Source: Actinobacteria bacterium UBA5176 | Lineage (GTDB): Bacteria > Actinomycetota > UBA4738 | NCBI GenBank assembly: GCA_002413305.1 | Contig: DHWS01000082.1 | Coordinates: 6,213-36,403, forward strand | Direction of reading: 5' to 3' | DNA length: 30,191 bases | In this document: positions 23,960 to 29,107 of the stretch, one piece after another | Numbering within the stretch: position 1 is the first letter of the stretch | How the letters are laid out: each line of letters starts with the position of its first letter | Position numbers and translations under genes: made by a program | Notes under the pieces: generated by a model | What the model was told of the DNA's origin: nothing | The model's database searches: none | The model's input: the letters and a program-made list of their open reading frames with translations, nothing else

Positions 23960-24051
23960 CGTGGAGGTTCTTCGTTCGGGCCGCCGATCCGGAGGACTCC
24001 GCCGCATGAGATTGCAGACGCAACTTCTCGTCTACGATGGGAGCATCCACC

Positions 24052-25374
24052 ATGCTTGAACCCAGACCGGACGCCGAACTCCGCCGGGCCCGCGACAGGG
24101 GCGAGGCACCCGATCCCGCCCGCGTCGCAGTCATCAGCGTGCACACCTCGCCGGGCGACCAGCCCGGGAGCGGAGACTCCGGCGGGATGAACGTCTACGT
24201 CCGCGAGGTGGCCGGCCGGCTGGTCGAACAGGGCATCCAGGTCGACATCTACACGCGTTTGGACGGCGACCCCGGCCCGCGGGTCCAGGACATCGGGGAC
24301 GGTGCCCGGCTGATCCGAGTCCCGGCGGGTCCGCGCGGTCCGGTGCCGAAGGAGGACCTCCCGAAGCACCTGCCGGAGTTCCTGGATGGCGTGCTGAGCC
24401 ACGCCCACGCCGAGGACCCGACGCCCCACCGCCACTCGCCGTACGACGTGGTCCACAGTCACTACTGGCTGTCCGGCTGGGTGGGCAGCCAAGCCAAGCA
24501 GATCTGGGGCGTCCCGCTGGTGGCGTCCTTCCACACGCTGGGGAAGGTGAAGAACGACTCGCTGGACGACCGCGACCACCTGGAGCCGTCCATCCGGTTG
24601 GCCGGAGAGCAGAAGGTCGTGCACGGGGCCGACCGCATCCTCGCCCCCACGCCGGTCGAGGCCGGCCAGCTGGTGAGCCTGTACGGAGCGGACCCGGCGC
24701 GGATCCGGATCATCTCGCCCGGCGTCGATACGGAGCTGTTCGTCCCCAGGCCGAAGGCCGAAGCGCGCGCCCGGCTGCACCTGGCGAAAGCCCGCCTCGT
24801 GCTGTTCGTCGGGCGGCTCCAGCCGTTCAAGGGCCCCGACGTGGCGGTCCGGGCGCTGGCGGCGGCCGTCCGCCAAGCTCCGGAGCTGATGCGCGACGCC
24901 GTCCTGGCCGTGGTCGGCGGGCCGGCCGGACAGCAGTCCCAGCCGGATGAGGTGGCCCGGCTCATGCAGCTGGCCTCCTCCGCTGGGGTCGGGGACCGCG
25001 TGGTCTTCTTCCCGCCCCAGCCGCACGAGCGCCTTGCGGACTTCTACTCGGCCGCCGAGGTCGTCCTGGTGCCGTCCCGGTGGGAGTCCTTCGGGCTCGT
25101 GGCCCTGGAGGCCGAAGCGTGCGGTACGCCGGTCATCGCGGCCGACGCCGGTGGCCTGCGGGACGTCGTGGTGGACGGCTCGACCGGGTTCCTGGTCAAG
25201 GGGCACGACCCGGATCGGTACGGAGCGAAGATCGTCGAGCTGTTCTCCGACCGGAAGCTGGCGCGACGCCTGTCGGCGGCGGCGGTCCGTCATGCGGCGA
25301 GGTTCTCGTGGGACGCCACCGCGGCCGAGATCCGCGGCGTCTACCGGGAGCTGCTGCCCCGTGAGGCCTCCTGA
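24052..25374 (+). CDS. mshA: D-inositol-3-phosphate glycosyltransferase (mycothiol biosynthesis)
   Basis: MshA transfers GlcNAc from UDP-GlcNAc to inositol-3-phosphate, the first step of mycothiol synthesis. The GT-B (GT4) protein has VAVISVHTSPGDQPGSGDSG, then GGMNVYVREVAGRL (acceptor/phosphate region), YDVVHSHYWLSGWVG, VGRLQPFKGPDVAVRAL, and the donor-site ESFGLVALEAEACGTPV. These match the MshA subfamily closely, better than sucrose or phosphatidylinositol mannosyltransferases. ATG 24052 (440 residues) has GGGAG 8 nt upstream; ATG 24037 overlaps a possible -10 (TACGAT, 24033-24038), so the shorter form is preferred. In M. tuberculosis mshA also lies downstream of the XRE/hbhA pair. Confidence 0.88.
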   Translation: MLEPRPDAELRRARDRGEAPDPARVAVISVHTSPGDQPGSGDSGGMNVYVREVAGRLVEQGIQVDIYTRLDGDPGPRVQDIGDGARLIRVPAGPRGPVPKEDLPKHLPEFLDGVLSHAHAEDPTPHRHSPYDVVHSHYWLSGWVGSQAKQIWGVPLVASFHTLGKVKNDSLDDRDHLEPSIRLAGEQKVVHGADRILAPTPVEAGQLVSLYGADPARIRIISPGVDTELFVPRPKAEARARLHLAKARLVLFVGRLQPFKGPDVAVRALAAAVRQAPELMRDAVLAVVGGPAGQQSQPDEVARLMQLASSAGVGDRVVFFPPQPHERLADFYSAAEVVLVPSRWESFGLVALEAEACGTPVIAADAGGLRDVVVDGSTGFLVKGHDPDRYGAKIVELFSDRKLARRLSAAAVRHAARFSWDATAAEIRGVYRELLPREAS

Positions 25375-25438
25375 AGCGCGGCCAGACCGTGCCCAGGAGG
25401 GGCGGACGGCGGCGTTCGGCGTGCGCGATGATGTCGGC

Positions 25439-25978
25439 ATGATCCGCGGCAAGAAGGTCTCCCTGCGCCCGGTCATGGAGAGCGACTACCCCCTGATCCG
25501 GCAGTGGATGAACCATCCCGAGATCTGGCGGTACATGGACTACGAGGAGCCGTACTCGTTGCAGGACGTTCGGGAGGACATCGAGCGCAGCCGCGAAGAA
25601 GGGCAGCCGTTCGCCATCCTGGTCGGCGACCGCCCGATCGGGCGGATCGGCCTCAACCAGTTCCGGCGCCGGGACCGCATCTGCTCCTTCCACATGTTCA
25701 TCGGGGAGCCGGCCTACTGGGGGAAGGGGTACGCCCGGGACGCGGTCATGGCGCTGCTGTCCTACGCGTTCGAGCGGTTCGACCTGCATCAGGTCGAACT
25801 GTGGACGCTGGCCGACAACAACCGAGCGGTCGGGACGTACGAGCGGTGCGGATTCGTCCTGGAGGGTCGCCTCCGGGAGCGTTCGTGGAAGGAAGGCCAC
25901 TGGGTCGACCATGTGGTTATGAGCGTGAACCGCGAGGAGTTCGCGAAGGCCCGCGAAGCTTGGGAGCGGGACGGCTGA
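25439..25978 (+). CDS. GNAT-family N-acetyltransferase (RimL-like)
   Basis: The 179-residue protein starts MIRGKKVSLRPVMESDYPLIRQW and has the acetyl-CoA loop YWGKGYARDAV. It ends with VELWTLADNNRAVGTYERCGFVLEG, the standard RimJ/RimL order. The substrate cannot be assigned. The start lies 64 bp after mshA. GATGAT (25427-25432) is a weak -10-like hexamer 6 nt upstream and there is no Shine-Dalgarno, so it may be leaderless or read with mshA. The large open frame covering the 5' part overlaps mshA in another frame and is not used. Confidence 0.87.
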   Translation: MIRGKKVSLRPVMESDYPLIRQWMNHPEIWRYMDYEEPYSLQDVREDIERSREEGQPFAILVGDRPIGRIGLNQFRRRDRICSFHMFIGEPAYWGKGYARDAVMALLSYAFERFDLHQVELWTLADNNRAVGTYERCGFVLEGRLRERSWKEGHWVDHVVMSVNREEFAKAREAWERDG

Positions 25979-26101
25979 GGCTCGCCAGAACCGCGTTCCT
26001 GCAGGCCGGAGGCCATTCGCCGTATTTGTCACTCAGGATCTGGGCCCGGCTGACCAGCCTCTGACCTGCGACGACGCGCCGCCACCAGGGATTTTGTCGC
26101 C

Positions 26102-26129
26102 TTGACGCGCCAGGGGCCATCCGTAAGAT
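26102..26129 (+). promoter_or_regulatory. Promoter of the candidate structured RNA
   Basis: TTGACG (26102-26107), a 16-bp spacer and TAAGAT (26124-26129) make one of the two clearest promoters in the window. Transcription should begin near 26136. No start codon with a protein-like frame follows. Confidence 0.7.
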
Positions 26130-26135
26130 ACGCCT

Positions 26136-26420
26136 TGCTCCGAGCAGTCGGAGCGGCTGAGTCAGGGAAGCGGAGTGGAACCCCCTGGGAAAGCCGTAAG
26201 GCCAACTGGGCGTACCTGCTCGTACGGTTGGGAAGGCCAACTAGCCGTCCGGGTGGGGTAGTTCGGGAGGCCCCAAAGCCCAACGAAAGGGTGACCGCCT
26301 CAGGACCCGAGACGGTCGCCGAGGTTACTCGGAGCACCAGGCCCGAGGGGCAGGTGGTGGTTGCGGACTTCGGTTCGCGACGAGCCGCCGGTCCCTCGGG
26401 CCTTATCTCTGCCCCTCGCG
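26136..26420 (+). ncRNA. Candidate structured non-coding RNA, no known family recognised
   Basis: The 451-bp gap 25979-26429 holds no convincing protein gene but is dense in perfect helices downstream of a good promoter. A long-range helix GCTCCGAG (26137-26144)/CTCGGAGC (26328-26335) can close a multibranched body. Inside it are CAGGG/CCCTG (26163-67/26183-87), GCC-GTAA-GGC (26193-26202, a GNRA loop), CCAAC/GTTGG (26202-06/26227-31) enclosing CGTAC/GTACG, AACTA/TAGTT (26239-43/26259-63) flanked by GGCC/GGCC, and GGTGACCG/CGGTCGCC (26290-97/26313-20). A 3' arm pairs 26339-26349 with 26393-26403 (11 bp) and is followed by TTATCTCT. It lacks the RNase P GAGGAAAGTCC core, a tmRNA T-arm and the SRP GGAAGNAGC core. 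It runs tail-to-tail with the ABC-F gene, so it is not that gene's leader. Confidence 0.55.
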
Positions 26421-26429
26421 GGTGGCGTC

Positions 26430-28019
26430 CTACGCGAGCGACACAAGGTCCAGGTAGTCGGCGCTCCAGAAGTCCACCGTGCCGTCCGGCATCATCACGA
26501 CCCGGTCGGGCTCCAGCGCCTGCACGAAGTCCCGGTCGTGGGTCACGATCACCATCGACCCTGGCCACGCCGACAGCGCCCGGGCGATGGCGTCCCGGGA
26601 CGGCGGGTCGAGGTTGTTGGTCGGTTCGTCCAGGAGCAGCAGGTTGTGCGCTCCCGCCACCAGCTGGGCCAGGGCGAGCTTCGTCTTCTCCCCACCGGAC
26701 AGCGTCCCCGCGTCCTGGAACGCGCGCTCGCCCGGCAGCCCGAACATCCCCAACAGGGCCCGAAGGGTCTGGTCCGGCTCGATCGAAGAGCGCCGCATGT
26801 GGGCCAGAACCTCCACACCCGGTTCGATCCCCTCGTGCTCCTGGGCGAAGTACCCGGCGCTCACCCCCGTCCCGAACCGCACGCGCCCCGTGTCGGCTTC
26901 GGACTCCCCGGCCAGGATCCGCAGGAGGGAGGTCTTGCCGGCACCGTTCAGGCCCATGACCAGGACCCGCTCGCTCTTCTCCACGCCGAACGTCACGTCC
27001 TCGAACACTGGCGGTCCTCCGTAGCCCTTGGCCAGCCCGGACACCCGGAGGACGAGGTTCCCGCAGTGCGGCGGCTTCGGGAACCGGAACCCCACCCGGC
27101 GCTCCTTCTTCGGCGCGTCGACGGCCTCGTGGCGGAGGCGCTCCACCCGCGTATCCAGGGCGTGCGCGATCCGGGCCCGCTTCTCCGTCTGGTGGCGCAT
27201 CGAATCGGCCAGCGTCTTCAGGCGCCGGATCTCCGCCTGCTGGCGGGTGGCGAGCCGCGTCTTTCGTTGCTCGTCCGCCTTCCGCGCCCGGCGGTACTCC
27301 GAGTACGTGCCCTTGTACTCGACCATCCCGGCGTCGTCGAGGTGCAGGACGCGGGTGATCGAGGCGTCCAAGAGGTTGAGGTCGTGGCTGACCACCAGGA
27401 GCCCACCGCGGTAGGACGCCAGGAACTTCATGAGCCAGGTCTTGGCGTCGGTGTCGAGGTGGTTCGTCGGTTCGTCCAGGAGCAGGAGGTCGCTGCCCGC
27501 GAACAGGATGCGGGACAGTTCGATCCGCCGGCGTTCCCCGCCCGACAGCACCCGGAGCGGCAGGTCCAGGCGATCGGGCTGGACGCCCACGCCGGCGGCG
27601 ATCCGTCGGGCCTCGGATTCGGCCGCGTACCCGCCGGCGTCGCGGAACGCCTCCTCGGCCCGGGAGAACTTCGCCACGTTGGTCGGGCTGGGGCGCTCCT
27701 CGACCGCGAGCCTGAGCTTCTCCAGCCGGACGATGGCTTCGTCCAGCGACCGACCGGACAGGATGTGGCCGATGGCCGTCCGCCCGGGGTCGATCCCGGT
27801 GACCTTGGGGTCCTGGGGCAGGTAGCCGAGCGCGCCGCGCCGAAGGACCGTCCCGTGGACCGACGGCAGCTCGCCGGCCAGGACCTTCAGCAGGCTGGTC
27901 TTACCGACCCCGTTGCGCCCCACCAGGCCGGCCTTGTCGCCGGCGCGCACGGCGAAGGAGGCCTCGTCCAGCACGACGCGGCCGCCGACTTCGACCGAGA
28001 GCTCCTTGACCTGCAACAT
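26430..28019 (-). CDS. ABC-F family ATPase
   Basis: The 529-residue protein has two tandem ABC domains and no membrane helices. Domain 1: Walker A GRNGVGKTS (about 34-42), signature LSGGERRR, Walker B LLLLDEPTNHLD. Domain 2: Walker A GLNGAGKTS, signature LSGGEKTK, Walker B LLLLDEPTNNLD. Between them is a charged linker of about 80 residues (RRARKADEQRKTRLATRQQ...), the P-site tRNA-interaction motif region. ABC-F proteins act on ribosomes as translation factors or in antibiotic resistance. No resistance context is visible, so a housekeeping role (Uup/Ttl-like) is more likely. The ATG lies 10 nt after TACCCT (28030-28035) on the minus strand, so the leader is very short. Confidence 0.92.
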   Translation of the reverse strand: MLQVKELSVEVGGRVVLDEASFAVRAGDKAGLVGRNGVGKTSLLKVLAGELPSVHGTVLRRGALGYLPQDPKVTGIDPGRTAIGHILSGRSLDEAIVRLEKLRLAVEERPSPTNVAKFSRAEEAFRDAGGYAAESEARRIAAGVGVQPDRLDLPLRVLSGGERRRIELSRILFAGSDLLLLDEPTNHLDTDAKTWLMKFLASYRGGLLVVSHDLNLLDASITRVLHLDDAGMVEYKGTYSEYRRARKADEQRKTRLATRQQAEIRRLKTLADSMRHQTEKRARIAHALDTRVERLRHEAVDAPKKERRVGFRFPKPPHCGNLVLRVSGLAKGYGGPPVFEDVTFGVEKSERVLVMGLNGAGKTSLLRILAGESEADTGRVRFGTGVSAGYFAQEHEGIEPGVEVLAHMRRSSIEPDQTLRALLGMFGLPGERAFQDAGTLSGGEKTKLALAQLVAGAHNLLLLDEPTNNLDPPSRDAIARALSAWPGSMVIVTHDRDFVQALEPDRVVMMPDGTVDFWSADYLDLVSLA

Positions 28020-28115
28020 GACCCGGACAAGGGTACGAGCCGCGAGCGGGTCCGGTGGGACCTCCGGGCCGTTCGCGGCAGGCCGTCCGGCGGACGCGCG
28101 GGCCGGAGCCGTTCC

Positions 28116-28121
28116 TATACT
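28116..28121 (+). promoter_or_regulatory. -10 element upstream of the leader ORF and proline dehydrogenase
   Basis: TATACT lies 6 nt before GTG 28128 and 50 nt before the proline dehydrogenase start. The transcript should begin at or next to GTG 28128. Confidence 0.6.
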
Positions 28122-28127
28122 CGGGGC

Positions 28128-28175
28128 GTGAACGGCCGGGCGGGCGCGAACGCGGGCGGAGGGGTCGGCCGGTGA
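28128..28175 (+). CDS. Possible leaderless 15-codon leader ORF overlapping the proline dehydrogenase start
   Basis: GTG 28128 follows the TATACT hexamer by 6 nt, the spacing seen for leaderless genes here. The frame encodes MNGRAGANAGGGVGR and stops at TGA 28173-28175, which overlaps the proline dehydrogenase GTG (28172-28174) as GTGA. The peptide is Gly/Ala/Arg-rich and contains no proline. Translational coupling is possible; it could also be chance in GC-rich DNA. The downstream gene also has its own GGAGGGG site inside this ORF. Confidence 0.35.
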   Translation: MNGRAGANAGGGVGR

Positions 28176-29107
28176 GCCCGCTGCTCCGGGGTTCGATCCT
28201 GTGGGCCACCGAGCAGCCGATCGTGCGGAGCCTCACCACCCGGACGCCGATCTTCCGGCAGATCGCCGGCCGGTTCGTGGCCGGGGACGACCTCGAAGCG
28301 GGGGTGGCGGCGGTCCGCGAGCTGGACGGGCAGGGGATCGCGGCCATGCTCGACCACTTGGGCGAGAAAGTGGGGTCGCCGGCCCAGGCGGCGTCGGCGG
28401 CCGACGACTACATCCAGGCCCTGAAGCGGGTCCGCGAATCGCCGGAGTTCGACGCGAACATCTCGGTCAAGCTCACCCAGCTGGGGCTGGACTCCGGGAC
28501 GGACGTGGCCCTCGAGAACATGGAGCGGCTGCTCCAGGTGGCGGGCGAGACGGATCCGCCCACGCTGGTGATGATCGACATGGAGGCCCGGCAGTACGTG
28601 GACGGCACGCTCGACGGCTACCTGCAGCTTCGCGAACGGCACCCGAACGTCGGCGTGTGCCTCCAGTCGTACCTGCACCGGACCGTGGTGGACGCCCAGC
28701 GCATCGGGGGCCCGTCGGCCATCGTCCGCATGACCAAGGGTGCCTACCTCGAGCCGCCCCAGGTCGCGTATTCGAGCAAGCGGGACGTCACCCGGAACTT
28801 CGCCCGGATCGCCGCGACCCTGCTGGGCTCGGGAGCCACGGTCCACCTCGCCACGCACGACCCGAAGCTGGTCGAGGGCGCTCGCCGGTTCATCCGGGAG
28901 CGCGGCATCCCCCGGGAGCGCTACGAGTTCCAGATGCTGTACGGGATCCGCCGGGACATCCAGCAGGACCTGGTCCGGCTGGACGAACCGGTTCGCGTCT
29001 ACGTGCCCTACGGCACCCAGTGGTATCCGTACCTGACGCGGCGGTTGGCCGAACGGCCTGCCAATGTATGGTTCTTCCTTTCCAACCTGCTTCGAAGAGG
29101 AGGGTGA
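28172..29107 (+). CDS. Proline dehydrogenase (monofunctional)
   Basis: The FAD enzyme oxidises proline to pyrroline-5-carboxylate. GTG 28172 gives 311 residues, the usual monofunctional PRODH length (about 300-310); GGAGGGG lies 7 nt upstream. The barrel features are visible: NISVKLTQLGLD, LVMIDMEARQY, GVCLQSYLHRTVVDA, VRMTKGAYLEP, ATHDPKLV and the C-terminal VRVYVPYGTQWYPYLTRRLAERPANVWFF, with the substrate-binding YxxRRxxE. No P5C dehydrogenase gene is present in the window. It is followed at once by proC, which performs the reverse-direction step P5C to proline; the two may form a proline/P5C cycle or be separately controlled. Confidence 0.94.
   Translation: MSPLLRGSILWATEQPIVRSLTTRTPIFRQIAGRFVAGDDLEAGVAAVRELDGQGIAAMLDHLGEKVGSPAQAASAADDYIQALKRVRESPEFDANISVKLTQLGLDSGTDVALENMERLLQVAGETDPPTLVMIDMEARQYVDGTLDGYLQLRERHPNVGVCLQSYLHRTVVDAQRIGGPSAIVRMTKGAYLEPPQVAYSSKRDVTRNFARIAATLLGSGATVHLATHDPKLVEGARRFIRERGIPRERYEFQMLYGIRRDIQQDLVRLDEPVRVYVPYGTQWYPYLTRRLAERPANVWFFLSNLLRRGG

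Follow-up and report, generated by a model that had tools for sequence, protein, structure and literature searches.

The window analyzed here is a stretch of 30,191 nucleotides of actinobacterial DNA in which a structured RNA gene is preceded by a GNAT gene and followed by an ABC-F gene in convergent orientation, the features of the region being:

24037–25374, + strand: MshA (D-inositol-3-phosphate glycosyltransferase), upstream neighbor (TIGR03449, 465.5 bits, cut-off 462.5)
25424–25978, + strand: GNAT acetyltransferase, upstream neighbor, start approximate (PF13302, E 4.4e-26)
26084–26095, + strand: upstream element ACCAGGGATTTT, directly 5' of the -35 box
26102–26129, + strand: sigma-70 type promoter TTGACG-16-TAAGAT (-35 at 26102–26107, -10 TAAGAT at 26124–26129)
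26135–26410, + strand: RNA gene of about 275 nt, its ends placed from the promoter, the closing helix P1 and the 3' hairpin
26430–28019, - strand: ABC-F ATPase, convergent (PF00005, E 1.6e-44; NF000355, 371.7 bits, just under the cut-off of 380)
28055–29107, + strand: proline dehydrogenase, start approximate (PF01619, E 3.5e-30), a common further-downstream neighbor

The promoter, already proposed in a sequence-only reading of this DNA, was recovered with 9 of 12 matches as the only promoter-like site in the region 25950–26480, none being found in shuffled sequences (mean 0.0, 50 shuffles), and transcription would start at about 26135–26137. Its TTGAC box is conserved in 17 of 19 homologues of the same compact form as the window's RNA (TTGAA in L060 and L070), and the promoter segment is 73.2% identical to that of six members of the same family, against 58.1% further upstream. 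At the other end, a terminator-like site was detected at 26390–26402 (tail TTATCTCTGC; shuffle mean 0.2), and the hairpin to which it belongs stops about 25 nt short of the convergent ABC-F gene. These borders are matched by those of sequence conservation. BLAST matches L002–L012 start at query positions 1–38, that is between promoter and P1, and among the 15 longer matches (L002–L012 and L014–L017, L013 being left out since its contig is cut) 14 end at query positions 301–305, equivalent to 26400–26404 and thus to the end of the 3' hairpin, the remaining one ending at 315; the weaker matches L018–L021 have other end points. Taken by segment, the RNA is 82.5% identical to the window's within the family (six loci), 80.0% in f3 (five loci) and 64.0% in f13 (three loci), whereas the flanks before the promoter and after the RNA show 52.6–58.1% identity, compared with 50.7–53.6% for shuffled flanks. 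Conservation is confined to promoter and RNA, with the flanks at or slightly over the shuffled level. One-base gaps are frequent in the alignment of the homologues, which indicates that no protein is encoded and agrees with the earlier observation that no protein-like frame is present.

The element upstream of the -35 box approximates ACCWGNNNTTTT in members from f1, f4 and f13 and differs in some f3 members, for example ACCTGCGGTTTC in L012. A strict pattern, GACCWGNNNTTTT followed by TTGAC, gave three matches in 27 genomes of the order, all of them the promoter of this RNA in other genomes, and hence no wider regulon by this pattern in these genomes; the copy in the window lacks the leading G and is therefore missed. 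Further conserved words, namely TTGTCACTC and the repeated TGACCTGCGG/TGACCAGC (in some cases spaced by about 20 bp), occur 5' of the RNA promoter in several genomes, including the window (26000–26101) and L050–L053, L059, L104 and L105, with TTGTCACTC also preceding the compact second copies of the RNA that are described below. From their sequence, these words look like sites of some regulator.

This gene matches no catalogued RNA family. The whole window has no Rfam match at the gathering score, its RNA stretch gives only chance-level matches at E<=10, and three distant members have no credible match at lenient E-values either (L062 none at all); the lenient matches, to miRNA, lncRNA and one alphaproteobacterial sRNA (ar45, E 1.5), all lie far under the cut-off. 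A literature search found no title or abstract opening describing this RNA. The family is new and absent from Rfam, so that the novelty surmised previously stands. The same reading had seen no hallmarks of RNase P RNA, tmRNA or SRP RNA, rightly so: these too are structured housekeeping RNAs, but each is encoded elsewhere in the same genome. RNase P RNA (RF00010) has no match in the window and is found at G000:C68 (222 bits); bacterial SRP RNA (RF00169) likewise has no window match and is found at G000:C75; tmRNA (RF00023) is found at G000:C171 (150.2 bits), and ARAGORN detects none in the window. Among ten genomes examined, RNase P RNA was detected in nine (not in G035), SRP RNA in nine (not in G009) and tmRNA above the cut-off in eight. 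Genome G035 is 94% complete and has no RF00010 match, though its class relative G049 has RNase P RNA, a situation that may reflect either an assembly gap or a divergent RNA. The 6S RNA model (RF00013) has no match in the window and none at E<=1 in any of the ten genomes, with a model that responds in six of 14 controls.

The predicted fold of the RNA is as follows, the values for paired cells, two-sided changes and column identity being those of 19 compact sequences:

26137–26149 with 26323–26335, + strand: P1, closing helix of 13 bp (98.8% of cells paired; two-sided change at 4 of 13 pairs)
26153–26159 with 26313–26319, + strand: P2, part of helix 2 (90.1% paired; two-sided change at 4 of 11 pairs)
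26176–26184 with 26289–26298, + strand: P4, helix 4 (91.2% paired; two-sided change at 6 of 9 pairs)
26186–26201, + strand: central segment, 5' side, TGGGAAAGCCGTAAGG, with A-rich internal loops (mean column identity 0.94)
26215–26257, + strand: apical hairpin of the rod, helix 10 (93.8% paired; two-sided change at 8 of 17 pairs)
26271–26285, + strand: central segment, 3' side, CCCCAAAGCCCAACG (mean column identity 0.95)
26339–26404, + strand: the 3' hairpin, terminator-like, its internal loops conserved and a T-rich tail after it (drawn from covariance model R1 and the alignment of the 3' domain)

That the region encodes a structured RNA is borne out by its folding energy, since the + strand of 26134–26420 reaches -156 kcal/mol against -129.6 +/- 5.95 for 200 shuffles (z -4.44, none as good), and the - strand of the same stretch gives z -1.79 with 12 of 200 shuffles as good. 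The single-sequence folds of the compact members have z values from -3.1 to -8.7, L064 being equalled by one of its 40 shuffles and each of the others by none of 40. The consensus of the 19 compact sequences is an unbranched rod of 68 pairs followed by the 3' hairpin. In this rod, 92.0% of cells are paired, compared with 31–46% after sliding one strand; two-sided changes occur at 27 of 68 pairs, against a shuffled mean of 12.7 (0/500); and the covariation score is 0.266, against 0.149 for shuffled and at most 0.093 for slid versions, over which the rod is favored because it was derived from the same 19 sequences. L070, near-identical to L060, was kept in this test and left out of the covariation ranking, while L013, whose 3' end is lost at a contig edge, was left out of the 3' domain alignment and L013–L017 out of the first full alignment (A3). 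Covariation among homologues had been proposed as a test of the RNA, and it is present.

Most of the support for the rod is carried by P1, P4 (the columns of which are among the strongest covarying) and the apical hairpin. The closing helix, given previously as 8 bp, is thus confirmed and extended, and the 3' arm noticed at the same time belongs to a real hairpin, the outer arms of which covary in 26 homologues (0/2000 permutations). Judged by comparison of sequences, the outer fold is well supported. The centre is the best conserved part, with mean identities of 0.94 and 0.95 on its two sides, P1 having 0.92–0.94 and the apical part 0.78; its short helices, being either nearly invariant or broken in f13, are tentative. 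A GNRA-capped stem suggested here, GCCGTAAGGC (26193–26202), can indeed be formed by the window sequence, yet in the consensus its GGCC (26200–26203) is paired with 26269–26272. This pairing is itself weakly supported: two of its four pairs have a single two-sided change apiece, and three of the four are unpaired in 5, 2 and 7 of the 19 sequences. The minimum-energy fold of the window's own RNA is branched, unlike the unbranched consensus, and in none of the 19 members is the rod the single-sequence minimum: the bare rod lies 6–52 kcal/mol and the completed rod 2–34 kcal/mol above it, the gap being greatest in f13. Because the rod lies above each sequence's own minimum, its centre is best taken as a working model, the middle of which may be wrongly drawn. 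RNAalifold recovered P1–P4 and the apical part both with four f13 sequences plus that of G332 and, separately, with f1/f3/f4 plus f45 and one copy from genus g11, the middle differing between these two sets. An alternative junction found by eye, TGGGC/GCCCA, is broken in f13 and f45 and was dropped. The fold of the GCCGUAAGGC region is likewise a prediction, as are the arms of the expanded form discussed below.

Homologues are common among the relatives of this genome. A DNA search of 100 relatives matched 20, own genome counted, with 75–85% identity over the matched part in the same family and order, 68% in G035 (family f13) and short matches in G042 (96%) and G049 (84%). We then used two covariance models, R1 for the 3' domain and R2 for the rod. 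R1 has matches in 21 of 27 genomes of the order, including all eight of high quality (>=90% complete, <=5% contamination), and in 27 of 396 genomes across the phylum; R2 matches 22 of 396 and adds G010 and G332, the latter from a further family. Together the two models match 29 of the 396 genomes sampled from the phylum, the window's own genome among them, on the assumption that both draws are one genome set, as their handles suggest. All five genomes of a second class (f13) are positive. Credible matches are lacking in G006, G022, G023, G024 and G026 of the order, four of which are 61–81% complete; G023, 98% complete with 7% contamination, gave nothing with R1 or R2. Not counted as homologues were a 25-base DNA match in G042 (L019), a genome in which R2 finds nothing, the R1 matches with E 0.0014–0.0043 (L054–L058, L054 overlapping a true copy on the other strand) and the R2 matches with E 0.5–0.9 in G006, G008, G012 and G024. 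By these sequence models the family occurs widely both in the order to which the window belongs and in another class of uncultured Actinomycetota.

A motif pattern searched in the contigs of 84,980 species genomes retrieved 16 contigs, of which 14 are titled Actinobacteria, Actinomycetes, Actinomycetota or actinobacterium, one 'bacterium' and one 'Acidobacteria' (which may be the contig of G035); no viral contig matched it. The last result bears on the idea that the RNA is a functionless remnant, for instance a piece of an old mobile element. This idea is also contradicted by the covariation, the conserved promoter, the sharp edges of conservation and the presence in all eight high-quality genomes of the order, and we regard it as extremely improbable. 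As a rule there is one copy of the RNA per genome, second copies being found on other contigs in G019 and G025. In G004, which has the full RNA, a separate stretch of 32 bases (L021, G004:C72:4815-4846) is 91% identical to the 3' strands of P2 and P1 (query 211–241) and may be a fragment or a chance match. The most distant homologue, L106 in G332, contains GGGGGUAAACUA and GGGUAAACUA, the latter as in f13; we take both to resemble loop sequences of RNase P RNA, and L106 has no Rfam match.

In the gene neighborhood of the relatives, genes were named by eye from translations (Pfam and NCBIfam having been run on the window proteins). Upstream there is an mshA-like gene, a GNAT gene or both, in some cases joined by an additional small gene; in L060 and L070 a different gene lies there, on the opposite strand, and this side is cut by the contig end in G332 and for the most part in G025:C86. 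The position after mshA or mshA-GNAT is supported, on sequence grounds, as the usual place of the RNA gene. On the downstream side, the opposite-strand ABC-F gene adjoins the RNA only in G000, G001 and G002 among the loci read, the other neighbors being proline dehydrogenase, TetR, ProC, isochorismatase, a secreted protein, a hydrolase and a PheA-like gene. In L007, a stretch of about 970 bases (approximately 1830–2800) separating the RNA from proline dehydrogenase has no clear gene by codon composition and is perhaps a decayed gene.

This context allows another interpretation to be weighed, in which the RNA is a 5' leader or riboswitch of a downstream proline dehydrogenase/ProC operon and its 3' hairpin a regulated terminator. 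Proline dehydrogenase or ProC does follow on the same strand at many loci, in L008 only about 24 nt past the hairpin, and the 3' strand of P1 (CUCGG) could pair with the 5' arm of the hairpin (CCGAG). However, the ABC-F gene after the RNA is on the opposite strand in three genomes, proline dehydrogenase is inverted in G160 and the second copies of G019 and G025 lie on other contigs; a constant downstream gene on the same strand, expected for a riboswitch, was not found. Moreover, in 26 homologues (without the copies of g11 and G332, L013 and L070) the alternative pairing between P1 and the hairpin has -10.02 kcal/mol for a sequence's own pairs versus -10.3 for mismatched partners, 96% of 2000 permutations being as good. 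A riboswitch-like switch between P1 and the terminator is not supported on this basis: covariation is seen between the two arms of the hairpin itself but not for the alternative pairing. We consider the leader interpretation improbable. Because the downstream genes vary in kind and strand and the switch pairing lacks covariation, a trans-acting RNA is favored over a leader, and the earlier suggestions that the RNA is not an ordinary 5' leader and may act in trans have gained support, the latter also from the conserved promoter, the terminator-like end, the covariation, the wide conservation and the absence of an Rfam family.

We conclude that the gene very probably encodes a structured RNA of about 275 nt that is transcribed on its own, acts in trans and belongs to a family outside Rfam. 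Comparison of the homologous sequences supports the following features of this family: the promoter is conserved, the RNA consists of a closing helix, a long rod whose A-rich centre is nearly invariant and a hairpin at the 3' end, and there is usually one copy per genome. The near-consensus promoter would make the RNA abundant, the 3' hairpin would end its transcription and the RNA would act by binding a protein. By analogy with Ms1 and 6S RNA, the leading candidate for this partner would be RNA polymerase: a rod closed at its ends could present a conserved central loop region that holds the polymerase or sets its amount. We view polymerase as the partner only tentatively, as a rather unlikely case.

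A conserved centre as the working part of the RNA fits poorly with a second form of the gene, because eight genomes (G008, G011, G012, G015, G016, G018, G019 and G025) carry at the usual location, behind an mshA-like or GNAT gene, an RNA whose middle is different and longer and lacks the conserved centre. The closing helix and the 3' hairpin are common to both forms, and the span from P1 to P1' is 277–398 nt in the expanded versus 194–228 nt in the compact form. Six expanded RNAs were folded, as single sequences, into five to seven arms each, 29 of the 37 arms being GNRA-capped and many having GA-rich internal loops, with z values from -6.0 to -9.4 and none of 60 shuffles as good. Two genomes of genus g11 contain compact second copies, L104 (G025:C86) and L105 (G019:C87), on a contig separate from that of the expanded copy and with a different stretch after P1; G012, also of g11, has an R2 match at E 0.51 only.

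These predicted arms, with their GNRA caps and GA-rich loops, their folding energies and the sharing of P1 and the 3' hairpin by both forms are consistent with a different role, in which the RNA is a scaffold or ornate RNA whose bulk matters rather than its central loop, assembling with itself or with a repeat-binding protein, so that rod and wheel would be two solutions to the same task. A mere scaffold would have no need for the nearly invariant centre of the compact form, and the arms of the expanded form are predicted from single sequences. We hold this role to be unlikely. A broader proposal, to which we give some credence while thinking it on balance doubtful, is that one RNA family of housekeeping grade, widespread in at least two classes of uncultured Actinomycetota with no detected 6S RNA, has switched at one place between two unrelated-looking architectures, and would constitute a new type of RNA particle, not an Ms1 variant. 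The two architectures would be a rod of about 200 nt, invariant in its A-rich centre, and a wheel made of five to seven mostly GNRA-capped arms, closing helix and 3' hairpin having remained unchanged through the switch and G019 and G025 holding both forms at separate loci. The switch of architecture at a single locus offers a natural experiment on what in the RNA is important. The RNA is also ready for probing, since its outer fold is backed by covariation, its gene has sharp borders and its homologues are many. Long, widely conserved bacterial RNAs outside known families are, to our knowledge, uncommon, and several such RNAs, once worked out, have turned out to be central machinery.

Among known RNAs, raiA/ModT, OLE, ROOL and GOLLD are also conserved, intricate bacterial RNAs, differing from the present one in hosts and architecture, and the window RNA has no gathering-score match in Rfam to any family. 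6S RNA is a long hairpin closed near both ends; the RNA described here is longer, has an extra 3' hairpin and does not match the 6S model. The closest known RNA in kind is Ms1, found in mycobacteria and, as scr3559, in Streptomyces, which binds the core of RNA polymerase without sigma and to which our RNA is likened from its published description. As described, Ms1 folds into a long hairpin that has a conserved bubble at its centre and, close to its ends, two short hairpins (PMC4191392). The published search lists it in 824 species from 14 orders and in one further 'Actinobacteria bacterium' left unspecified, and its neighbors are given as oxidoreductase/Fic genes and a HAD hydrolase ('inhibition of morphological differentiation'/phosphoserine phosphatase) (PMC9130861). 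As far as this description goes, both are standalone RNAs of Actinomycetota, similar in size (about 275 versus about 300 nt), with a conserved gene neighborhood and hosts without 6S RNA, and on the modelled fold of our RNA they would also have in common a long hairpin most conserved in its middle and a short hairpin near an end.

The RNA could be a true Ms1-like RNA, the functional counterpart of Ms1 outside its published range, binding the polymerase core and regulating its amount; a distant form of Ms1/6S had been among the suggestions of the sequence-only reading. A modelled rod closed near its ends and free of branch points, with the most conserved part at its centre, would be in keeping with this, as would the short 3' hairpin, the size and the lack of a 6S match in ten of ten genomes, and the published Ms1 table, in the part cited here, names other lineages (PMC9130861). 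The neighbors, however, are different: the window has MshA, GNAT, ABC-F and proline dehydrogenase, and its RNA is flanked by mshA/GNAT and ABC-F or proline dehydrogenase rather than by the HAD hydrolase and oxidoreductase genes described for Ms1. There is no Rfam match, and the shape also differs, in that the consensus rod, the energy minimum in none of 19 members, has a nearly invariant centre with many small purine-rich loops and one 3' hairpin, instead of the single large bubble described for Ms1, while the expanded members are predicted to be multi-arm and lack the rod. With the outline shared and the neighbors lacking, we do not assign the RNA to Ms1, and would give an Ms1-like function a modest chance at most. 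If this RNA does bind RNA polymerase, Ms1-like control extends beyond the lineages described so far; if it does not, it represents a new RNA particle.
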